Part shown: piece by piece, positions 42,105 through 53,215 of the stretch
Position numbering within the stretch: the stretch's first letter is position 1
How the letters are laid out: each line of letters opens with the position of its first letter
Source: Enterobacteriaceae bacterium
GTDB lineage: Bacteria; Pseudomonadota; Gammaproteobacteria; Enterobacterales; Enterobacteriaceae
Assembly: GCA_031261005.1 (NCBI GenBank)
Contig: JAISKF010000035.1
Location: forward strand, 1-64,000
Length of the DNA stretch: 64,000 nucleotides
Direction: 5' to 3'
The notes under the pieces: generated by a model
What the model saw: the letters and a program-made list of their open reading frames with translations, nothing else
Databases searched by the model: none
What the model was told of the DNA's origin: nothing
Translations under genes and position numbers: made by a program

Positions 42105-42443
42105 ATGAATGAAATTCAAATTCGTTTCAACATGGTAGAAGACAACTTAGATCCGGCAGAAGTGACGAAAGAACTTCTGCTGATTATCGATGGTTGGTTA
42201 AAAGAAGAAGGGGCATACACCACCGACGTTCAGCAGCAAATGTTGGAATCGCACGTTAAAGCTATGGTAACACGGGCGAAAACCGGTGAAGCGCTGCCAG
42301 AAGTGGACGTCTCACTGTTTGACGAGATTTCCCCTGAATCCATGCAGTTAGCGGAGCGTGCTATCAATACGCTGCCAGGCTTACCGATTGAGGAAGCCTA
42401 CTTGCTGTCTGTTCATTTTGAAATTGCACGTTCAAACGATTAA
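42105..42443 (+). CDS. Stand-alone PRD-domain protein (EF_0829/AHA_3910 type)
   Basis: A 112-residue cytosolic protein that looks like a single PTS regulation domain. It has two candidate phospho-acceptor histidines, H50 (ESHVKAMV) and H104 (LLSVHFE), at PRD-like positions, and the spacing between them is normal for one PRD. There is no DNA-binding domain. First gene of the cassette. I recall a named family for such proteins in the same conserved neighbourhood of Enterococcus and Aeromonas. It may pass PTS phosphorylation state to the membrane proteins or the regulator; this is inference. ATG at 42105 follows AGAGAGCAG; the frame is open 24 bases further upstream. Confidence 0.75.
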   Translation: MNEIQIRFNMVEDNLDPAEVTKELLLIIDGWLKEEGAYTTDVQQQMLESHVKAMVTRAKTGEALPEVDVSLFDEISPESMQLAERAINTLPGLPIEEAYLLSVHFEIARSND

Positions 42444-42463
42444 TTCTGTTGGAGATAGAACAA

Positions 42464-42829
42464 ATGAAACAAATCGTCGTTGTTATTGGTGATCGTTTAG
42501 GTAAAGGTCAAAAAGTTGCTGCTGGTGTTGAAGCCGCAGGCGGAAAAGCAATCGTAATTCCTGGTGTGGCTGCGGATATGAAACTGGGCGACATCATGAA
42601 TGCTGAACAGGGTGATATTGGCATTTCTTTCTGCGGAAGCGGCGGTGCCGGTGCGATTACTGCTCAGAATAAATATGGCTATAAAGTTCGTCACGGTATG
42701 CGCTCGATTGAAGAGGGTGAAACTGCGATCGCCGATGGTTGTACTGTACTGGGCTTCGGTTTTATGGATAAAGAAGAGCTGGGTGAGCGTTTAGTAAAAG
42801 CATTTAACAAAAAATACGGCAACGCATAA
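42464..42829 (+). CDS. SFCGS family glycine-rich protein (EF_0830 type)
   Basis: A 121-residue cytosolic protein of the Gly_rich_SFCGS family, named for SFCGSGGAGAI (C57 here). It opens with a beta strand and KQIVVVIGDRLGKGQ, then a VIPG strand, an outline like a small Rossmann-type or EIIB-like fold. C57 at a strand end followed by a glycine loop recalls the phospho-cysteine loop of PTS EIIB proteins, but this is only a pattern resemblance. Function unknown; always found with the neighbours listed here. GGAG precedes the ATG; the stop overlaps the next ATG (TAATG). Confidence 0.8.
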   Translation: MKQIVVVIGDRLGKGQKVAAGVEAAGGKAIVIPGVAADMKLGDIMNAEQGDIGISFCGSGGAGAITAQNKYGYKVRHGMRSIEEGETAIADGCTVLGFGFMDKEELGERLVKAFNKKYGNA

Positions 42830-43125
42830 TGAAAGAGCATCTTAAAACATCGGTTCGTGTCAGCGGTCGGGGAGATACCAAACAAAAAGCCATCGCTGAT
42901 GCACTAAGCTCTGTGCAGCGCACAGTATTAAAAGATAGCAGCAACATCATTCTACGCATTGAACCGCTTGAGGTTGAAGTGATAAGCGCCACTGTTAAAG
43001 TGACGAAAGAGAAGTTTCTGTTTGTCTTTTTCCCGCGTAATCGTGAGCTTTACTCAGTTGTTTTAGATGTCGCTTTAGATGTGAGCTTGCTGAATGTTCA
43101 AGAAATACATTTCGACTCAGTGTAA
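42829..43125 (+). CDS. DUF4312 family protein (EF_0831 type)
   Basis: A 98-residue soluble protein with alternating beta strands and a helix. It starts MKEHLKTSVRVSGRGDTKQKAIADALSS, a dodecin-like outline, and continues with RIEPLEVEVISATVKVTKEKFLFVFFPR. No catalytic motif is apparent. Translation is coupled to the SFCGS gene through a TAATG overlap. Function unknown; presumably a cytosolic partner of the two membrane proteins that follow. Confidence 0.78.
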   Translation: MKEHLKTSVRVSGRGDTKQKAIADALSSVQRTVLKDSSNIILRIEPLEVEVISATVKVTKEKFLFVFFPRNRELYSVVLDVALDVSLLNVQEIHFDSV

Positions 43126-43158
43126 GGCACTGAATCAAATGTTTTAGAGGAAATACAA

Positions 43159-43959
43159 ATGGATGCAAATACTACTGTTTCTGTTTTTGAGATCCTAATA
43201 AAGTCATTAATTATTGGCGGTCTATGCGGTGTCGGTCTTGGTGCCGGTGCTGCGCGTATGTTCCATGCCCCGACAATTCAGGGTATGGGCGCGTTTCGTA
43301 CATTAGGTGAGTTGAACTCCTGCGAGGGAGATCCCGCATCTCACTTCTCCTTCGGTTTAGGCTTCTTCTTCAATGCCTGGGCTTCATCGGTTGCTGCCGG
43401 TGCGTTTACCCAAGATGTTGATCACCGCATTATTCCTAACTGGGGTGCTGCTGCGCTGATGATTAAAAACCGCAACGTCGCTGAAACACTGCACAACCCA
43501 AAAAAGATGGCGATCGCTTGCGGCATTATCGGTGCCATTGTAGTGGCGTTCCTGAATACTACTGCGTCTGCGGTTCCGGCTTCACTGCAAACTACGGCAA
43601 CTAACGTGCTGGTTCCTGCGGCTAACTTGCTGGTTAACACCGTGATGCCAGTTATTTTCTGGTTAGCAGCGATGGACGCAGGTCGTCGTTCTGGTTTCTG
43701 GGCAACCCTGTTCGGCGGCTGTGCACAGTTAATCATGGGTAATGCTATCCCTGGTTTAGTGCTGGGTATTCTGATCGGTAAAGGCGTTGATGACAGCGGC
43801 GGCTGGAACAAAGTGACTCGTACCATGATGATCGCAGTAATCCTGCTGTTCGTATTGAGTGCGTTCTTCCGTGGTTTCGACTTGAAACTGTTGCAGTCTT
43901 TCGCTTTAGGCGCACCGGACTGGTTACAACACGTTCATAACGTATTAAGCGGTAAATAA
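43159..43959 (+). CDS. DUF4311 family membrane protein
   Basis: A 266-residue integral membrane protein with about seven hydrophobic segments. The N-terminal part has GGLCGVGLGAGAARMFHAPTIQG, and FSFGLGFFFNAWASSVAAG and FGGCAQLIMGNAIPG are conserved-looking loops. I take it as one half of a two-component membrane channel or carrier with the next gene. No resemblance to known EIIC sequences can be asserted. TTTTAGAGG precedes the ATG. Confidence 0.8.
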   Translation: MDANTTVSVFEILIKSLIIGGLCGVGLGAGAARMFHAPTIQGMGAFRTLGELNSCEGDPASHFSFGLGFFFNAWASSVAAGAFTQDVDHRIIPNWGAAALMIKNRNVAETLHNPKKMAIACGIIGAIVVAFLNTTASAVPASLQTTATNVLVPAANLLVNTVMPVIFWLAAMDAGRRSGFWATLFGGCAQLIMGNAIPGLVLGILIGKGVDDSGGWNKVTRTMMIAVILLFVLSAFFRGFDLKLLQSFALGAPDWLQHVHNVLSGK

Positions 43960-44051
43960 TTTCATCGGAAGTATTTCTCTTTTAATAATGAGAATTAATG
44001 CGTTCGGTAAGAGATAAATCAACGACAGTAAACAAATTACTAGGACTTGAT

Positions 44052-44705
44052 ATGAATAATACAGAATTAAAAAATGACTTTTGGTATGCAGAGTGGACTT
44101 TCCCTCTGTTTGTAGGTCTGTTATCGGCAGGGGTTTTTGCCGGTACACACATGTATGTTGTTTATGGCTTCGGTGCGTTTAACGAAGTGGCATTTGTGGC
44201 GATGTTGCGTTCTGGTATTGATACCGGTGTTTACGGCGCAGTTGCCGCGTTCGGTGCCAGCTTCCTGTTTGCGCGTATTATCGAAGGCTCGCTAGTCGGT
44301 ATTTTGGATATTGGCGGCGCGATCCAAACAGGTCTCGGTTTAGGCGTTCCGGCGCTGCTGCTGGCAGGCGGTTTCGACGTCCTGATCACCAACTTTATTG
44401 CTGCACTAATCACTGGGTTAGTGTTGGGTGTGATCGTCGGTTTTGTGATTATTCTGGCTCGTAAATTTACTATCAATCAGGGCAACTCCACTTACGGTGC
44501 TGATGTCATGATGGGCGCAGGTAACACTTCCGGTCGTTTTCTTGGTCCTTTGATTATCCTTGCTGCAATGGCAGCGTCGATTCCAATTGGTATCGGCTCA
44601 TTAATCGGTTCGTTACTGTTCTACATCTGGAAGAAACCTGTTGCAGGCGGCGCAATTTTAGGTGCGATGATCTTAGGTTACTTCTTCCCGTTGGTTGTTA
44701 AGTAA
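44052..44705 (+). CDS. DUF4310 family membrane protein
   Basis: A 217-residue integral membrane protein with about six hydrophobic segments (including GLLSAGVFAGTHMYVVYGFG and LVLGVIVGFVIILA). It follows the DUF4311 gene by about 90 bp. The two occur together in the conserved cassette and I infer that they form the uptake unit. I chose ATG 44052 with AGGAC upstream; the frame is open back to 43998 but lacks a ribosome site there. Confidence 0.8.
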   Translation: MNNTELKNDFWYAEWTFPLFVGLLSAGVFAGTHMYVVYGFGAFNEVAFVAMLRSGIDTGVYGAVAAFGASFLFARIIEGSLVGILDIGGAIQTGLGLGVPALLLAGGFDVLITNFIAALITGLVLGVIVGFVIILARKFTINQGNSTYGADVMMGAGNTSGRFLGPLIILAAMAASIPIGIGSLIGSLLFYIWKKPVAGGAILGAMILGYFFPLVVK

Positions 44706-44773
44706 TTGAGTTAACCTCACTTAAAGTAATTAACTCAAGGTATAGCGGACGGTAATCAGCCGCCCGCTATACC
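44706..44773 (+). terminator. Two adjacent hairpins inside the cassette
   Basis: TTGAGTTAA pairs with TTAACTCAA (44706-44738), and GGTATAGCGG pairs with CCGCTATACC (44739-44773). They lie between the transporter genes and the enzyme genes. No T run follows, so partial termination, processing or mRNA protection is more likely than a full stop. Confidence 0.5.
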
Positions 44774-44821
44774 TGAATGAAATACCTGAGCGAAATCAAC
44801 GGGCGGCAGATTGTCGCTTGT
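44741..44821. repeat. Dispersed paired-hairpin repeat, diverged copy
   Basis: GGACGGTAATCAGCCGCCC and GGGCGGCAGATTGTCGC arms face each other. This copy is inside the cassette between DUF4310 and the amidohydrolase, the only one apparently within an operon. Confidence 0.6.
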
Positions 44822-44866
44822 CCGAAAAACAACATGATCAACAGCATATAAAAGTGAGCAGATTCC

Positions 44867-46015
44867 ATGAATGATTTAATCATTAAGCAAGCAAGATTAG
44901 TAAACAGCAATGGTGCTGACATCGTTGACGTAGTGATTAATCAAGGAAAGATTCATGAGATAGGTACATCAGTAGCCGATGGTTTAACGGCGAAAAAAGT
45001 GATCGATCTTAATGGAAAATTCTATATCAGTGCTGGTTGGATTGATGCTCATACTCATTGTTACGCGGCTTCGCCAATCTATTTTGATGAACCGGATTTA
45101 GCCGGTGCTGCTCACGGCGTCACAACGGTGATCGACGCAGGCAGTGTTGGTGCTGATGATATTGACCATTTCTATTCATTAGCGAAAAAAGTCAAAACCA
45201 ACGTTTATTCATTATTAAACATTGCCAGTATCGGCATTATTGCTCAGAACGAATTGTCGGATATGAGCAAAATTGACGATGAAAAATTACAGCAAGCGAT
45301 TAAACGCCACCCGAATTTTGTTGTTGGCATCAAAGCGCGCATGAGTAAAAGTGTCGTGGGTGAAAACGGCATCGCGCCGTTAATTCGCGCCAAAGAGATG
45401 CAAAAAGAGAGCGGTTTACCACTAATGGTGCATATCGGCAACAACCCGCCGAATCTGGACGAGATCGCCGACTTGCTGACTAAAGGTGACATTATTACCC
45501 ACTGTTTTAACGGTAAACCTAACAAAATTCTGGATTCCGATGGCAACTTAAAACCATCAATTCAACGCGCATTAACGCGCGGTGTGATTTTAGATGTCGG
45601 TCACGGAGGAGAAAGTTTCAGTTTCTCTGTTGCCGAACAAGCAATGAAGATCGGCACGTATCCCGATCTCATTAGTTCTGATATTTATCACAAAAACCGC
45701 ATTAACGGACCGGTATACAGTCTGGCAGCGGTGATGACAAAATTCCTGTGTATGGGATTCTCGCCAAAGCAGATCATTGATTGTGTAACGGTTAAAGCCG
45801 CAGATTTGCTGCACCTGAAAGGTAAAGGTCGTTTAGCCGTTGGTTACGATGGTGATGTAACGATTTTTGATATTAAAGATGAAAGAGTCGAACTGTCTGA
45901 TGCTGAAGGTCAGGTAAGAGTCGGAACGCAAAGATTTGTTCCAATCGCAGCGATTGTTGCGGGGGAAAGTATTGCAACTAAAGAAGGTGATTCAGATTAT
46001 GCCATCGATTTATGA
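44867..46015 (+). CDS. Amidohydrolase/deacetylase family metallohydrolase (COG3964, EF_0837 type)
   Basis: A 382-residue amidohydrolase-superfamily TIM barrel. Metal ligands: H62-x-H64 (DAHTHC), carbamylated K156 (VGIKARMS), H189 (LMVHIG), H212 (ITHCFNG) and D272 (SSDIYHKN). COG3964 proteins were often mislabelled dihydroorotase; characterised relatives hydrolyse acyl esters of alpha-hydroxy acids or related amides. Here it probably removes an acyl group from an imported compound before the PLP enzyme acts. Ends inside the next gene's start (17-bp overlap). Confidence 0.85.
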   Translation: MNDLIIKQARLVNSNGADIVDVVINQGKIHEIGTSVADGLTAKKVIDLNGKFYISAGWIDAHTHCYAASPIYFDEPDLAGAAHGVTTVIDAGSVGADDIDHFYSLAKKVKTNVYSLLNIASIGIIAQNELSDMSKIDDEKLQQAIKRHPNFVVGIKARMSKSVVGENGIAPLIRAKEMQKESGLPLMVHIGNNPPNLDEIADLLTKGDIITHCFNGKPNKILDSDGNLKPSIQRALTRGVILDVGHGGESFSFSVAEQAMKIGTYPDLISSDIYHKNRINGPVYSLAAVMTKFLCMGFSPKQIIDCVTVKAADLLHLKGKGRLAVGYDGDVTIFDIKDERVELSDAEGQVRVGTQRFVPIAAIVAGESIATKEGDSDYAIDL

Positions 46016-47111
46016 GAAATATAATTTAAGAAAAGTGATTAACGCCTCTGGTCGTATGACCATTTTAGGCGTTTCGACGCCTAAGCCGGAAGTGGCGGAC
46101 GAAGTGCTTTTCGGACTTAATCAGTATTTTGAAATGAAAGATCTGGTGAAGAAAACCGGCGCTTATATCGCTAAATTGCTAGGTGTTGACGATGCTATCG
46201 TCGTGTCCTGTGCTTCTGCGGGGATCGCTCAATCTGTTGCTGCTGTTATCGTGAAAGATGACAGCGATCTGCTACTGAATTTACACAGTTCTGATAAGCA
46301 AGTTCCGCGTGAAATCGTGATCCCAAAAGGGCATAACGTGAATTTCGGCGCACCAGTCGAAACGATGGTGACATTAGGCGGCGGTAAAGTAGTGGAAGCG
46401 GGTTTTGCTAATGAGTGTAGCGCTACGCAGCTTGCGGCAAAAGTGACCCCGCAAACCGCAGCGATCCTGTATATCAAATCCCATCATTCAGTACAGAAAA
46501 GTATGTTGACCGTAGCTGACGCCGCAGCGGTAGCGAAAGCCTATGACTTGCCGTTAATTGTTGATGCGGCAGCAGAAGAAGATCTCACCGCTTACTACAA
46601 TATGGGCGCAGATCTGGTGATTTACAGCGGTGCGAAAGCCATTGAAGGACCAACCAGCGGCTTAGTGCTCGGTAAAAAACAGTATATTGAGTGGGTTCGG
46701 TTACAGGGTAACGGTATTGGTCGGGCGATGAAAGTCGGTAAAGAAGGTATTCTTGGACTGACGCTGGCGATTGAACTTTATCTGACCGCTAAGAAAGAAA
46801 CCGGTCAGGAAATGGTGGAAAAAATGACACCATTTATTAACGATCTAAACGCAATTGCCGGTATTTCTGCCAAAGTGGTTTGGGACGCCGCAGGGCGTGA
46901 TATTGCCCGCGCTGAAATTACGTTTGATGAACAAGCGATTGGTAAGAATACCTTTGAAATTATGAAACTGTTGAAACAAGGCGATACCGCGATTTATTTC
47001 CGCGAATATAAAGCAAATGAAGGCAAAGTAGAAGCTGATGTCCGTAGTGTCAGCGCCCCGCAGCTTGATGTAATTTCTGCGGCTATTCGTCAATTAGTTT
47101 CTGCTAAGTAA
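45999..47111 (+). CDS. SelA/DgaE-like PLP enzyme (predicted amino-sugar-acid ammonia-lyase)
   Basis: A 370-residue fold-type I PLP enzyme. Schiff-base lysine K213 in YSGAKAIEGP, phosphate-binding region VSCASAGIAQS at residues 69-79, and VDAAAEEDL with the cofactor-stacking aspartate. The closest characterised relative by context is Salmonella DgaE, D-glucosaminate-6-phosphate ammonia-lyase, which makes 2-keto-3-deoxygluconate-6-phosphate. The next gene is a KDGP-type aldolase, so the same chemistry is likely; the exact substrate is unknown. The ATG at 45999 (AAGGTG upstream) overlaps the amidohydrolase stop; an ORF extension to 45936 is not needed. Confidence 0.83.
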   Translation: MPSIYEKYNLRKVINASGRMTILGVSTPKPEVADEVLFGLNQYFEMKDLVKKTGAYIAKLLGVDDAIVVSCASAGIAQSVAAVIVKDDSDLLLNLHSSDKQVPREIVIPKGHNVNFGAPVETMVTLGGGKVVEAGFANECSATQLAAKVTPQTAAILYIKSHHSVQKSMLTVADAAAVAKAYDLPLIVDAAAEEDLTAYYNMGADLVIYSGAKAIEGPTSGLVLGKKQYIEWVRLQGNGIGRAMKVGKEGILGLTLAIELYLTAKKETGQEMVEKMTPFINDLNAIAGISAKVVWDAAGRDIARAEITFDEQAIGKNTFEIMKLLKQGDTAIYFREYKANEGKVEADVRSVSAPQLDVISAAIRQLVSAK

Positions 47112-47137
47112 TCGTGCAGCATAACGGAGTTTAACAA

Positions 47138-47878
47138 ATGAAATTAAGTCCTAATTATTATCAAGATCGCGTTTGCCTTAATGTACTGGCGGGCAGCAGA
47201 GAAAATGCGCGTGAAGTGTATGCCGCCGCAGAAAAGCATGTTGTTGTCGGTGTGTTATCGAAAAATTACCCTGATTTAGCCAGCGCGATTGAAGATATGA
47301 CCAAATATGCCAACGACATCGACAACGCGATCTCTGTTGGTTTGGGCGCAGGCGATCCGAATCAGTCGGAAATGGTTTCGCAAATCTCTAAAGTGATCCA
47401 ACCGCAGCATGTTAATCAGGTATTCACCGGCGCGCCAGTCAGCAGAGCGCTGTTAGGGCAGAATGAAACAGTAGTCAATGCGCTGGTTTCACCGACGGGT
47501 ACAGTTGGTTTAGTGAAAATCTCTACTGGTCCATTAAGCTCTACATTCCCTGATGCTATCGTTCCGGCTGAAACCGCGATCGCTATGCTGAAAGATATGG
47601 GCGCAAGCTCTGTGAAATACTTTAATATGCGCGGCTTAAAACATATTGACGAATTTGCTTATGTGGCAAAAGCCTGTGCGGAAAACAATTTCTATCTGGA
47701 ACCAACCGGCGGCATCGATCTGGCGAACTTTGAACAAATCCTCAAAATTGCTTTAGATGCCGGTGTGGAAAAAATCATTCCTCACATTTATAGTTCAATT
47801 ATTGATCCAGAAACCGGCAATACCCGACCGGACGATGTAAAAACGCTTTTAGCCATTGTTAAGAAACTCGTTCCTTAA
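47138..47878 (+). CDS. KDGP aldolase family protein (DgaF / EF_0839 type)
   Basis: A 246-residue TIM-barrel aldolase of the KDGP_aldolase (DUF1341) family. GLGAGDPNQ, SPTGTVGLVKISTGP, SVKYFNMRGLKH and EPTGGIDLANF are typical. DgaF splits 2-keto-3-deoxygluconate-6-phosphate into pyruvate and glyceraldehyde 3-phosphate. It ends the catabolic operon and a strong terminator follows. Unrelated in sequence to the Eda aldolase. GGAG precedes the ATG. Confidence 0.85.
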   Translation: MKLSPNYYQDRVCLNVLAGSRENAREVYAAAEKHVVVGVLSKNYPDLASAIEDMTKYANDIDNAISVGLGAGDPNQSEMVSQISKVIQPQHVNQVFTGAPVSRALLGQNETVVNALVSPTGTVGLVKISTGPLSSTFPDAIVPAETAIAMLKDMGASSVKYFNMRGLKHIDEFAYVAKACAENNFYLEPTGGIDLANFEQILKIALDAGVEKIIPHIYSSIIDPETGNTRPDDVKTLLAIVKKLVP

Positions 47879-47921
47879 TGCGTTAACATTTTCGCGTAGA
47901 GTTTTTGCGTAGAAATACAGG

Positions 47922-47957
47922 AAGCCTTTCTTAGCGGTATGCGGAAAGGCTTTTTTT
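47922..47957 (+). terminator. Rho-independent terminator of the cassette operon
   Basis: AAGCCTTTC pairs with GAAAGGCTT around a 13-base loop and is followed by a run of T. Confidence 0.9.
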
Positions 47958-48000
47958 ATCGATGATTTCCCTCTGATAGAGATTAATTAAAGGTATCTTT

Positions 48001-49932
48001 GTGGCGCTATTTCCTTATCAACGTCTTGCTTCTTTATTTGATGCGATCCAATCAGAAACTTTGCCGCAAGAAGAACTTGCCAAACGTTTCGATGTATCAA
48101 CACGGACGATCCGTACCGATGTCATCGCATTAAATGATGTGTTAGCCAGCTATGGCGCAAGCGTAGTGTATGAGCGGGGATTAGGTTATCGCCTGAAAAT
48201 TACGGATAAACAAAGTTTTGCTGCGTTGCCGATGCAAAAATATCAGATTAAAAGTATTCCGCGCACCGCGAAAGAACGTGTCGATGCGTTGCTGCTGAAA
48301 TTTTTGATGGCATCGTTACCGATAAAGCTCGATGACATTGCCGAAGATTGGTTTGTTAGCCGCGGTACATTGCAAAACGATATGACAACGGTCAGAGAAC
48401 AACTGAACAAATATCAGATCACGTTAGATACCGTTCCCCGTCAGGGCATAAAACTGGTCGGCGTGGAACAAGCGATCCGCGCTTGTATTACCGATGTGCT
48501 TTGGCAGCAGTTTTCGATGGAGCAAGAACGTTCCATTAATAATTTTAAACAGGATATTCTGACTAATATTGATTTAACTTATATTGAAAAAATCCTGCAA
48601 AACAGTGTGAATCGTTTTGATATTCGCCTGACTAATGAGGGGCGGCAATATCTTATCTTTAATTGCGCGGTATCGATTTTGCGGATTACGCGCGGTCATG
48701 AAATTGTTGATTTCAATGCAGATGAGATCTGTGAAGTGATCAAAAATGCGGTAAAAGAGATCTCCAAAGGATTTGTCTACTTTCTTGGCAGTGAAATTTC
48801 GGCGGCAGAAGAAAAATACCTTAGCGTGCAAATTTCCGCACAACGCATCTCCTATAATCGCAGTACAGTGGCAGCAGAAAGCAGCAGCGACGAACTGGTT
48901 GATTACATTCTTACTTATATTAATGATTCCTATAATTACGATCTGCGCGATGACGAGAAATTAAAAACGGATTTGTCAACGCATCTGGCAGCGATGATCA
49001 CGCGTGTGCGTTATCAGATTAATACTAAAAATCCATTACTATCTGATATTAAACAATATTATCCTTTCGCCTATGACGTTACATTAAGCGCGATGGCAAA
49101 CGTAGAAGATAAACTGCCGCATACTATCAGCGAAGATGAATTAGGGTATCTTGCGGTGCATATCGGCGTTGGGCTGGAACGCAATTACAGCGTCGGTTAT
49201 ACCCGCCATCCGCATGTACTGGTGGTGACGGATTCTGGCAATTCTACGATTCGTATGATCGAAGCCAAAATTGTGCGGGAATTTCCGCAGCTTAAATTGC
49301 ATCGCGTGATTTCGTTAAACGAATACGAAGCGTTGGAAATGGTTGATGAAGATTTCGTGATTACCACCGTTCGCCTGACTGAAAAAAATAAGCCTATTGT
49401 CAAAATCGCGCCATTCCCGACACCGTATCAGTTGGAGCAAGTCGGGCGTTTAGCTATGGTGGATCGCACCAAGCCGTATATCCTCGAACGTTTTTTTGAT
49501 GAACGCCATTTTATGATCGTCAAAGGTAAAATGACGCAAGAAGCGCTGTTTAAACGGGTGTGCAAAAAGCTGGAAGCAGACGGTTACATCACCAAAGATT
49601 TCTATCCATCATTGATCGAACGGGAATCTATTGTTTCAACGTTATTAGGTGAGGGGATCGCCTTACCTCATTCGCTAGGATTGCTCGCTAACAAAACCGT
49701 CGTAGTTACGATTTTAGCGCCAAGCGGTATTGAGTGGAATAAAGATAAAAAAGAGACAGCAAACGTAATTTTCCTGCTGGCGATCAGTAAAGCCGAATAT
49801 GAAGAAGCGATGGCGATCTACGATTTATTTGTTACGTTTGTGCGTGAAAAGGCGACAAAACGCTTACTGAACAGCAAGAGCTTTAACGATTTTCAGGTGA
49901 TCGCTAAAGATAGTCTTGGCCGCAGTGCTTGA
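48001..49932 (+). CDS. PRD-containing transcriptional activator with EIIB and EIIA domains (MtlR/LicR type)
   Basis: A 643-residue multidomain regulator starting with GTG at 48001 (AAAGG upstream). Order: N-terminal HTH_11 domain (residues about 6-60, STRTIRTDVIALND), a second helix-turn-helix (95-150), PRD1 (about 180-285), PRD2 (about 290-395, with HIGVGLERNY), an EIIB-gat-like domain (400-490), and a C-terminal EIIA type 2 domain (500-640) with H557 in ALPHS. In the EIIB-like domain the phospho-cysteine loop reads VTDSGNST, so cysteine is absent. Such proteins activate sugar operons when dephosphorylated or phosphorylated at specific sites by the PTS. It most likely controls the upstream cassette, and possibly the following DcuC-like operon. 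Confidence 0.88.
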   Translation: MALFPYQRLASLFDAIQSETLPQEELAKRFDVSTRTIRTDVIALNDVLASYGASVVYERGLGYRLKITDKQSFAALPMQKYQIKSIPRTAKERVDALLLKFLMASLPIKLDDIAEDWFVSRGTLQNDMTTVREQLNKYQITLDTVPRQGIKLVGVEQAIRACITDVLWQQFSMEQERSINNFKQDILTNIDLTYIEKILQNSVNRFDIRLTNEGRQYLIFNCAVSILRITRGHEIVDFNADEICEVIKNAVKEISKGFVYFLGSEISAAEEKYLSVQISAQRISYNRSTVAAESSSDELVDYILTYINDSYNYDLRDDEKLKTDLSTHLAAMITRVRYQINTKNPLLSDIKQYYPFAYDVTLSAMANVEDKLPHTISEDELGYLAVHIGVGLERNYSVGYTRHPHVLVVTDSGNSTIRMIEAKIVREFPQLKLHRVISLNEYEALEMVDEDFVITTVRLTEKNKPIVKIAPFPTPYQLEQVGRLAMVDRTKPYILERFFDERHFMIVKGKMTQEALFKRVCKKLEADGYITKDFYPSLIERESIVSTLLGEGIALPHSLGLLANKTVVVTILAPSGIEWNKDKKETANVIFLLAISKAEYEEAMAIYDLFVTFVREKATKRLLNSKSFNDFQVIAKDSLGRSA

Positions 49933-50407: not shown

Positions 50408-50569
50408 GTTATCGCGTACAATGAAGTACCAAAATAATAATTTGAATTTATCGTTTGTTTGTGTAAAAACCTTAGTGAATATATTTGAATAGTTTGATTA
50501 TATTTCTAATAAGGTAGTGGAAGCAGTCTTTTGATTGCAATTTTAAATTAGCGGATAGTGAGTCTTAAT

Positions 50570-51901
50570 ATGCTTCAAATAATCGCTTTAGTGGTGGTTG
50601 CGATCACCATTTATTTACTCATAAAACAATATGAAACACGAATGGTGTTAATTGGCTCTGGTTTAGTTATGTGCCTGTTAATGTTTACAACCAAAGATGG
50701 ATTTACGCCGTTAGCTGGTTTTATGGCGGGTTTGGATTCATTCGGCGAACGTATGACTAACGCCAGTTTGATTCAGGCAATTTGTGCCAGTATGGGTTTT
50801 GCTTTCGTCATGAAATACACCAAATGTGATATGCAGTTGGTGCAGGCATTGGCTGGCATGATGAACAATTTGGGTTTCTTCCTGATCCCAATGACTGTCG
50901 TTGTGACCTATTTTATCAACATTGCGATCCCATCTGCGGCAGGTTGTGCGGCAGCAGTAGGGGCAACATTAATTCCTTTATTGATCGGTGCGCGTATCCA
51001 CCCTGCAATTGCGGGTGCTGCGGTATTAAGCGGGACTTTTGGTGCATTTTTAAGTCCGGGTACGTCGCATAATGTGTTCGTGGCTAACTTATATAACGAA
51101 GTGATGGTCGGTACGGAAGGCTTCGCTAAAATGGAAGTTATGGACATCATTCGCGGTCACTCAACGGCGACTATCATCGCGGGTATTATCGCTACCGTTG
51201 CGCTGTCAGTGGTTGCGCTGGTGCGTAAAGAGTACCGCATTGCGCCAACGGAAGATGCAGTAACAGCAGAGGGCGAAGAAAAGCAAAAAGGTAAAACGAA
51301 TTACCTGTACGCCACTGCGCCGTTTGTGCCATTAGTTCTGCTGCTGATCGCAGGTTTAACCCATTGGTTTGGCACAGTTAAAATGAGCGTGCCATCAGCG
51401 ATGGTGATCGGTGCGCTGTATGCGTTGCTGATCACGCGCAGTAATCCTGCGGAAATGACCAAACAATTTTTTAGCGGTATGGGTAAAGCCTACTGCGATG
51501 TTATGGGTATTATCATTGCCGCCGCAGTATTCGCTGCCGGTCTGAAAACCTCTGGCTTAATTAACAGCTTCATCTCTTTCCTGACCGAAAACCCAGAAAT
51601 GGCACGTTGGGGCGGTACTATCGGACCATTCCTGATGGGTATTATCACGGGTTCTGGTGACGCCGCCGCATTAGCCTTTAACGAAACCGTGACTCGTCAT
51701 GCCACCAGCTTAGGCTACAGCATTCCTGACTTGGGTATGGCAGCCGCAATTTCTGGCGGTTTAGGGCGTACCATGTCACCAATCGCTGGTGTAACTATCG
51801 TTTGCGCTGGTTTAGCAGCAGCAAATCCAGTTGAACTGGTTAAACGCAGCGCACCGGGTATGATTATCTGCGTTATCTTTCTCGCGCTGTATATGCTTTA
51901 A
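50570..51901 (+). CDS. DcuC-family anaerobic transporter
   Basis: A 443-residue polytopic membrane carrier of the DcuC (C4-dicarboxylate) family, with about 11-12 hydrophobic segments. The C-terminal GLGRTMSPIAGV...AANPVELVKRSAPG matches E. coli DcuC's LGRTLSPVSGV...ISPFEVVKRTSVP. DcuC proteins exchange or export C4-dicarboxylates anaerobically, in keeping with the FNR box. Because it is paired with an AbgA-like hydrolase, the substrate here may be an acylated amino acid or peptide-like dicarboxylate. I chose ATG 50570 (aligns with the E. coli start); a GTG four codons upstream is possible. Confidence 0.83.
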   Translation: MLQIIALVVVAITIYLLIKQYETRMVLIGSGLVMCLLMFTTKDGFTPLAGFMAGLDSFGERMTNASLIQAICASMGFAFVMKYTKCDMQLVQALAGMMNNLGFFLIPMTVVVTYFINIAIPSAAGCAAAVGATLIPLLIGARIHPAIAGAAVLSGTFGAFLSPGTSHNVFVANLYNEVMVGTEGFAKMEVMDIIRGHSTATIIAGIIATVALSVVALVRKEYRIAPTEDAVTAEGEEKQKGKTNYLYATAPFVPLVLLLIAGLTHWFGTVKMSVPSAMVIGALYALLITRSNPAEMTKQFFSGMGKAYCDVMGIIIAAAVFAAGLKTSGLINSFISFLTENPEMARWGGTIGPFLMGIITGSGDAAALAFNETVTRHATSLGYSIPDLGMAAAISGGLGRTMSPIAGVTIVCAGLAAANPVELVKRSAPGMIICVIFLALYML

Positions 51902-51946
51902 AAATCAACCAACTTTAAGCTGTAATAAATAAGGTAGGTAAATGTA

Positions 51947-53215
51947 ATGTCAACTATTGATTTAAACCAGTTAGTCACTTGGCGTCGCGAACTGCATCGG
52001 TTTCCTGAAATCGGTTGGTCTGAATTTACTACTACCGCGCGTTTAATTACTGAACTGCGTAATTTGGGCTTAGATGTTATCGCCGGACCTAAAGTGATCA
52101 ACCGCGAATTTGTTCGCGGTCGCAAGGCTGATGTCGTAGAGCGCGGATTAGCACTGGCGCGGGAACGCGGCGTTGATGAAGCGCTGCTGACAGAAATGGC
52201 GGAACTAACCGGCTGTATGGCAACGTATGATACCGGCAAAGCAGGTCCAACTATTGCACTGCGCTTTGATATTGACTGCGTAAACGTGCAGGAATGTGCG
52301 CTTGCTGAACATATTCCAAACATTGAGGGCTTTGCGTCCAAAAGCGCAGGTTTGATGCACGCTTGCGGTCACGACGGGCATATGTCTATCGGCTTAGGTA
52401 TCGCCAAATGGTTAGTGGAAAACGGCAGTTCTCTTAGCGGAAAAGTGAAGTTACTTTTCCAACCAGCCGAAGAGGGCGTGCGCGGAGCCAGACCAATGGC
52501 AGAAAGTGGTATCGTTGATGATGCGGATTACTTCTTAGGTATGCACCTCGGTTTTATCGCTAAAAGCGGTGAGATCGTCGTTAATCCAAATAGCTTCCTG
52601 TGTACCACTAAATACGACTTCCGTTTCTACGGCGCACCGGCACACGCCGGTGCTGAACCGCATTTAGGGCGCAACGCACTGGCAGGAGCTTGCCACGCGG
52701 CAACACAAATGCTGGGCATTTCCCGTCATGGTAAAGGCATGTCACGTATCAATGTTGGCGTGATCCGTGCTGGCGAAGGTCGCAACGTTGTACCTGCTTA
52801 CGGTGAATTACAGATTGAAGTGCGAGGCGAAGATGAAGCCATCAACACGTATATGGCAGAACAAGTTGAACGCATGGCGGCTGGTGCAGCACATAGCTTC
52901 GACTTACGCCTTGAAAGTGAAGTGATGGGCGAAGCCGTTGATCTGCAAAACGATAAAGAGCTGGTCGATGTGTTAACCAGCGTGGTACAGCAAAACCCTG
53001 AGCTAACGGTTATTCCAGAGCGAGTATTCGGCGGCAGCGAAGATGCCACTATTCTGGCAAAACGTGTTCAGCGTCACGGCGGTAAATCCATCTACTTTAT
53101 TGTTGGAGCCGATCTAAAAGCGGGTCATCATCAGGCAGTTTTCGACTTTGACGAAAAACAACTGGCAACAGCCGCCAATCTGTTTATCGGTTGTTTGCAG
53201 AAGTTGATGAAGTGA
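51947..53215 (+). CDS. M20-family amidohydrolase, AbgA-like
   Basis: A 422-residue zinc-dependent M20D peptidase/amidohydrolase. HACGHDGH and QPAEEGVRGAR carry metal ligands, and GSEDAT and AGHHQ are near the C-terminus. Sequence follows E. coli AbgA (p-aminobenzoyl-glutamate hydrolase subunit A) through most of its length, including the long loop after the N-terminal helices. AbgA normally works with AbgB; there is no AbgB gene here, so activity on p-aminobenzoyl-glutamate is uncertain. It lies 45 bp after the DcuC-like gene with a GGTAGGT ribosome site, probably in one operon. Confidence 0.83.
   Translation: MSTIDLNQLVTWRRELHRFPEIGWSEFTTTARLITELRNLGLDVIAGPKVINREFVRGRKADVVERGLALARERGVDEALLTEMAELTGCMATYDTGKAGPTIALRFDIDCVNVQECALAEHIPNIEGFASKSAGLMHACGHDGHMSIGLGIAKWLVENGSSLSGKVKLLFQPAEEGVRGARPMAESGIVDDADYFLGMHLGFIAKSGEIVVNPNSFLCTTKYDFRFYGAPAHAGAEPHLGRNALAGACHAATQMLGISRHGKGMSRINVGVIRAGEGRNVVPAYGELQIEVRGEDEAINTYMAEQVERMAAGAAHSFDLRLESEVMGEAVDLQNDKELVDVLTSVVQQNPELTVIPERVFGGSEDATILAKRVQRHGGKSIYFIVGADLKAGHHQAVFDFDEKQLATAANLFIGCLQKLMK

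Follow-up and report, generated by a model that had tools for sequence, protein, structure and literature searches.

A conserved gene cassette encoding SFCGS and DUF4310–DUF4312 proteins in an Enterobacteriaceae bacterium, with a tentative role in the uptake and breakdown of an N-acylated amino-sugar acid

Analysis of a 64,000-nucleotide stretch of DNA from an Enterobacteriaceae bacterium (assembly GCA_031261005.1, contig JAISKF010000035.1, positions 1–64,000; hereafter the window) revealed a cassette of nine open reading frames (ORFs), all on the + strand (positions 42105–49932). We tentatively read it as an operon by which an N-acylated 2-amino-2-deoxy-aldonic acid is taken up and degraded; the most plausible substrate is N-acetyl-D-glucosaminate (GlcNAc1A), the monomer that remains from C1-oxidised chitin. 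Two membrane proteins, DUF4311 and DUF4310, would form an inner-membrane carrier, with the SFCGS protein (predicted RpiB fold, Cys57) and DUF4312 as its cytosolic parts, and a small stand-alone PRD protein would link this carrier, via its two histidines, to phosphorylated HPr (HPr~P) of the phosphotransferase system (PTS). An amidohydrolase would take off the acyl group and a DgaE-type lyase would then take off ammonia, while an aldolase would cleave 2-keto-3-deoxy-6-phosphogluconate (KDGP) to pyruvate and glyceraldehyde-3-phosphate; a PRD/EIIA activator would turn the operon on.

The ORFs and the curated family models bore out the nine genes and the order given to them in an earlier reading made from the letters alone (the original prediction), each gene scoring far above the cut-off wherever one exists. 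All component hypoth_equivalog models of the TIGRFAM cassette EF_0829-EF_0839 / AHA_3910-3917 exceeded their cut-offs, and the genes are contiguous. The conservation of this cassette was previously noted by database curators, who catalogued it as uncharacterised, and DUF4310, DUF4311 and DUF4312 are named in no open-access paper found by full-text search. As had also been predicted, no EIIC or kinase gene is present within 42105–49932.

The constancy of the cassette was determined in 84 loci: (i) 80 genome loci (the best 80 of 484 confirmed matches, mostly close relatives, from Enterobacterales, Aeromonas and one draft gammaproteobacterium, “AwWohl”) and (ii) four loci of a plasmid collection (Klebsiella, two Bartonella and Enterococcus faecalis). 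The block PRD-SFCGS-DUF4312-DUF4311-DUF4310-amidohydrolase-lyase was present in all of them, indicating that the arrangement is not due to chance. The activator gene, placed 5′ or 3′ of the block, accompanies it in 81/84 loci and the aldolase gene in 75/84 (it is missing from most Xenorhabdus-type loci and from L019). The sole recurrent extra gene besides chromosomal neighbours encodes a lactonase with a signal-peptide-like start (38/84 loci). A kinase gene adjoins the cassette in one locus only, that of E. faecalis, where EIIC and MupG genes are inserted between the DUF4310 and amidohydrolase genes. No kinase or classical PTS is linked in the other 83, so neither always accompanies the cassette, an association that the original prediction had regarded as speaking against it. 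Scans of viral contigs yielded no relatives, and the Escherichia coli genomes collection contained no DNA match.

The predicted amidohydrolase/deacetylase (44867..46015) matched TIGR03583 with 524 bits (cut-off 432) and belongs to the EF0837/cog3964 group; it aligned to the PDB entries 8wzy and 2ics (EF0837), and the HxH/K/H/H/D metal ligands are legible in its sequence. Ornelas and colleagues are said to have found in 2013 that cog3964 members hydrolyse acyl-(R)-alpha-acids, and N-acetyl-D-serine weakly. The next gene (45999..47111) encodes a DgaE-family pyridoxal phosphate (PLP) ammonia-lyase, which passed the cut-off of subfamily TIGR01437 (581 bits; cut-off 385) but failed that of NF047797, the equivalog for true DgaE (371 bits; cut-off 600). 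Its residues K211, H160/H161 and R302/R333/R347 (numbered from Ser1 of the translated reference) correspond to K213, H162/H163 and R301/R332/R346 of DGL. In a comparison of the lyase rows with the Salmonella enzyme, every readable row retained the PLP lysine and the proton donor His163, as well as the arginines R301/R332/R346 of the modelled phosphate cluster, and the carboxylate Arg226 of Salmonella DgaE was replaced by Lys in 75 of 85. The aldolase (47138..47878; NF047796/TIGR03581), which has close PDB relatives, passed the DgaF equivalog NF047796 (393 bits; cut-off 300). These results support the predicted enzyme order of deacylase, D-amino-sugar-acid lyase and KDGP aldolase, and we consider this class of pathway probable.

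GlcNAc1A itself is proposed as the substrate with more reserve. Since C1-oxidised chitin ends form a lactone first, the lactonase with its signal-peptide-like start would fit an oxidised-chitin substrate. Many hosts of the cassette are insect- or invertebrate-associated. Furthermore, a 2024 study of Aeromonas found a lytic polysaccharide monooxygenase, KdgK and KdgA, together with only distant or no counterparts of OngB and OngC, and left other deacetylases and deaminases possible (PMC11653859); Aeromonas dhakensis carries the cassette (L091), which may thereby provide the enzymes still missing for growth on oxidised chitin in bacteria other than marine ones.

The original prediction had pointed to PTS-type phosphorylation histidines in two proteins, and these proved to be conserved. 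In the stand-alone PRD protein (42105..42443; TIGR03582), His50 is found in 86/86 rows (YhfY included) and His104 in 85/86; in the transcriptional activator (48001..49932; HTH/Mga, two PRD, EIIB and EIIA(Fru/Mtl; PTS_EIIA_2) domains), the PRD residues His328/His387 and EIIA His557 are kept in all 78 readable rows. In this predicted PRD/EIIB/EIIA activator, the EIIB domain is degenerate, its cysteine being lost in the window (VVTDSGNS) and in part of the relatives, most others of which have VCD. Additional support for the PTS link was provided by two plasmids of the alphaproteobacterium Bartonella, in which the whole cassette is followed, 64 nt past the activator gene, by a co-directional gene for an HPr-EI fusion of 671 aa. 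No PTS gene beyond this fusion is annotated on the HY406 Bartonella plasmid. The travelling of the fusion with the cassette suggests that the latter needs phosphoenolpyruvate-derived phosphate, whether for the activator, the carrier or both. On balance, some form of coupling between uptake and PTS phosphate seems likely.

HPr and EI were not found in the window's own assembly. A loss of the PTS from this genome was considered and set aside in favour of a probable assembly gap, because cysK, which neighbours ptsHI in a close relative, is likewise missing and the PTS gene NagE is present. The same genome contains, inside contigs, fruK without fruBA and ptsN-rapZ without npr, which suggests partial PTS erosion.

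Several observations weigh against the reading proposed above. In AwWohl (2.0 Mb draft, >100 contigs) the core is present and neither HPr nor EI is detectable, although the activator frame is broken. DUF4311 (43159..43959; TIGR03580/PF14188) and DUF4310 (44052..44705; TIGR03579/PF14187), both polytopic by hydropathy and putative carrier subunits, have no PDB relative by sequence and no EIIC match among the Pfam/NCBIfam models. Their hhalign scores against EIIC remained at the level of shuffled controls, in a test whose power is low since the control pair ManY and ManZ also scored as unrelated; a relationship to ManY/ManZ or Cel EIIC was not retained, as nothing rose above the shuffles. In addition, the lyase of Clostridioides difficile keeps the arginine triad, though its substrate may be unphosphorylated; for this reason, the triad does not discriminate, and it was dropped as decisive evidence of a phosphorylated lyase substrate and is taken as supportive only.

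The lack of EII similarity in DUF4310/DUF4311 and the AwWohl genome also favour an alternative in which the carrier does not phosphorylate: DUF4310/4311 would import the free acid, which would be deacylated and deaminated to 2-keto-3-deoxygluconate (KDG), a PfkB-type KDG kinase would convert KDG to KDGP for the aldolase, and the part of the PTS would be regulation only, exerted via the activator and the small PRD protein. Such an order of steps is proven for the ong pathway (PMC9537276), and a KDG-kinase-like PfkB kinase gene lies beside the aldolase gene in E. faecalis, C. difficile and Niallia. A C. difficile plasmid (L147) and Niallia taxi (L148) encode the same amidohydrolase, lyase and aldolase together with a classical EIIC (and, in C. 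difficile, EIIA and EIIB), a MupG-family protein and the kinase, and have no DUF block; E. faecalis carries both the DUF block and the classical EIIC, MupG and kinase. The swap of carriers in C. difficile and Niallia counts in favour of the main reading. Directly 3′ of EIIC, a small membrane-like protein of 93–99 aa is encoded in E. faecalis (L010:12100-12396) and Niallia (L148:5541-5819). However, the kinase tracks EIIC plus MupG in 3/3 loci and occurs in 0/83 loci lacking them, a pattern confounded by phylogeny, as all three are Bacillota. The reducing-end sugar set free by MupG carries no phosphate (PMC6262408), which could alone account for the kinase in these loci.

The only PfkB-family genes of the window's own 94%-complete assembly are RbsK, FruK and three that we take, by eye, to be HldE, PdxY and ThiD. 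None of these is KdgK, which, within the limits of the assembly, favours phosphate entry before the lyase. The non-phosphorylating carrier is nevertheless a possibility to be taken seriously, short of a favoured one.

Structural evidence was obtained for the SFCGS protein (42464..42829; PF14272/TIGR03577; invariant Cys57, Asp10 and Arg11), for which no solved relative was found by sequence search. Its AlphaFold2 model (predicted local distance difference test score, pLDDT, 90; predicted template modelling score, pTM, 0.85) was used in structural searches. The 24 Foldseek matches with E≤0.001 were without exception RpiB/LacAB proteins (RpiB, E 2.5e-5), and VIA-align returned 21 RpiB-family rows (Z 9.3–13.1), followed by generic alpha/beta proteins (Z 8.1). 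Profile comparison with RpiB (hhalign; E 1e-4, score 31.8) exceeded 200/200 column-shuffled controls (maximum 25.9). SFCGS is therefore newly predicted to have the RpiB/LacAB sugar-phosphate-isomerase fold. Its Cys57 is invariant (85/85) and aligned with the RpiB cysteine (E. coli Cys66).

The whole-chain RpiB/LacAB fold and the cysteine in place would suit an SFCGS protein that is a catabolic isomerase instead of a carrier part, supplying an aldose-ketose isomerisation that a phosphorylated amino sugar would need ahead of the lyase. However, RpiB His99/Asn100 are not kept (the position opposite His99 is Asn, Ala or Arg, rarely His) and the phosphate Arg133/Arg137 lie past the SFCGS C-terminal end, so that the arginine tail is absent; for these reasons, judged from the sequence, SFCGS is probably not an ordinary isomerase. 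Moreover, its gene is always located between those of the PRD protein and DUF4312/4311/4310 and is missing in both loci that have a classical PTS only, and aldonates are, by general chemistry, incapable of aldose-ketose isomerisation. We regard a catabolic isomerase as quite improbable.

The same searches bear on whether the DUF block might be a genuine PTS enzyme II that has diverged strongly, with DUF4310/4311 as EIIC/EIID, SFCGS as EIIB and DUF4312 or the PRD protein as EIIA. The co-transfer of HPr-EI is consistent with this, as are the Man-family PTS that supplies the homologous DgaE/DgaF in Salmonella (PMC9529869) and a weak Foldseek match of SFCGS to the lactose EIIB 3nbm (E 0.019, rank 49). 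The RpiB matches are, however, far stronger (E 2.5e-5; Z 13.1 compared to about 8 for unrelated rows), and profile comparison gave no EIIC or EIIB signal, with the low power noted above. A diverged enzyme II seems very improbable. The structural comparison with EIIC/EIIB folds suggested in the original prediction pointed, on present evidence, to an RpiB-like rather than an EIIB-like SFCGS; the DUF4311 model was too poor for a judgement (pLDDT 61, pTM 0.53) and had no fold match. DUF4311 showed a weak match to DUF2232 (E 5e-4, below cut-off). A relationship of DUF4311/DUF4310 to YhfT was rejected: DUF4311 exceeded 60 shuffles in a single-sequence comparison, and this signal was gone once a YhfT alignment was used. 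DUF4312 (42829..43125; TIGR03578/PF14189), a small soluble protein, has no credible PDB relative by sequence, and its matches to RecA concatemers were discarded as repeat artefacts.

Returning to the PTS-coupled carrier, that it phosphorylates its substrate itself is possible, though less likely than not. The idea, put forward in the original prediction, survives as a possible hypothesis, with better support from context (no kinase, HPr-EI co-transfer and carrier swap) and weaker support from homology (RpiB fold, no EIIC signal). In its most specific form, which we consider unlikely, the DUF block would be a new class of phosphorylating permease, passing phosphate from HPr~P to the stand-alone PRD protein, then to SFCGS Cys57 and finally to the sugar acid during import by DUF4310/4311; this would amount to PTS group translocation by unrelated components. 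If the carrier does phosphorylate, PTS group translocation would have been invented twice. The proposal gives a concrete, testable role to five function-less protein families present in many gut and insect-associated bacteria.

A transporter of the DcuC family and an amidohydrolase of M20 type are encoded directly 3′ of the cassette (window positions 50558–53215), the latter presumably, by eye, p-aminobenzoyl-glutamate-hydrolase-like; the M20-type hydrolase also neighbours the cassette in Limnobaculum, Leminorella, Budvicia and two Xenorhabdus loci. Several copies of the cassette are altered. The AwWohl activator frame (L074:14083-14762) breaks at a simple repeat (NHNHNPNPN-like), for which phase variation, decay or sequencing error are possible explanations, and the amidohydrolase of this strain has a poly-Asn insertion. 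The copy of the Arsenophonus endosymbiont of Aphis craccivora (L025), with activator, amidohydrolase and lyase broken or shortened, is apparently decaying. In Aeromonas caviae KAM479 (L149) the cassette is apparently internally deleted (PRD, SFCGS and activator kept, DUF4310 a fragment); the record, chromosome-sized at 4.9 Mb, is typed as a plasmid. The aldolase of E. faecalis IDRL-9065 (L010:15714-16456) is split over two frames, and the adjoining genes look intact.

Compared with known systems, the cassette combines features of several. SFCGS shares the predicted fold and the cysteine position with the RpiB/LacAB isomerases, but lacks their ring-opening His and phosphate Arg, and its genomic context is that of a membrane carrier. 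The ong pathway for GlcNAc1A in Pseudoalteromonas, which is experimentally proven, proceeds by deacetylation and deamination and ends at KDGP (PMC9537276), as predicted for the cassette; it differs in the use of the SSS-family OngIT, a D-aminoacylase-type OngB, a fold-III OngC, KdgK and a MurR/RpiR repressor, and its enzymes are non-homologous to those of the cassette. The Salmonella dga operon for D-glucosaminate has a homologous lyase and aldolase (DgaE, DgaF), PTS involvement and the same end products, pyruvate and glyceraldehyde-3-phosphate. Its pathway starts from D-glucosaminate-6-phosphate made by a Man-family PTS (PMC9529869); in contrast to the cassette, it has a classical PTS permease (DgaABCD) and no deacylase in the described pathway, and the cassette lyase falls below the DgaE equivalog cut-off. 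The Bacillota clusters of C. difficile and Niallia share all three enzymes with the cassette, and differ in having a classical Lac/Cel-family PTS, MupG and a kinase where the cassette has the DUF block. Finally, the E. coli yhf operon (L099) likewise encodes a stand-alone PRD protein (YhfY, E 5e-4 with the cassette PRD) and a small RpiB-like Cys protein (YhfU, DUF2620; E 1e-4 with RpiB), which shares the RpiB-like cysteine motif of SFCGS, next to a membrane protein, PLP enzymes and a phosphotriesterase-like hydrolase (Php). Its membrane protein YhfT has no profile similarity to DUF4311/4310 and its enzymes are different, yet the sequence comparisons suggest that yhf is possibly a second operon of cassette-like layout.

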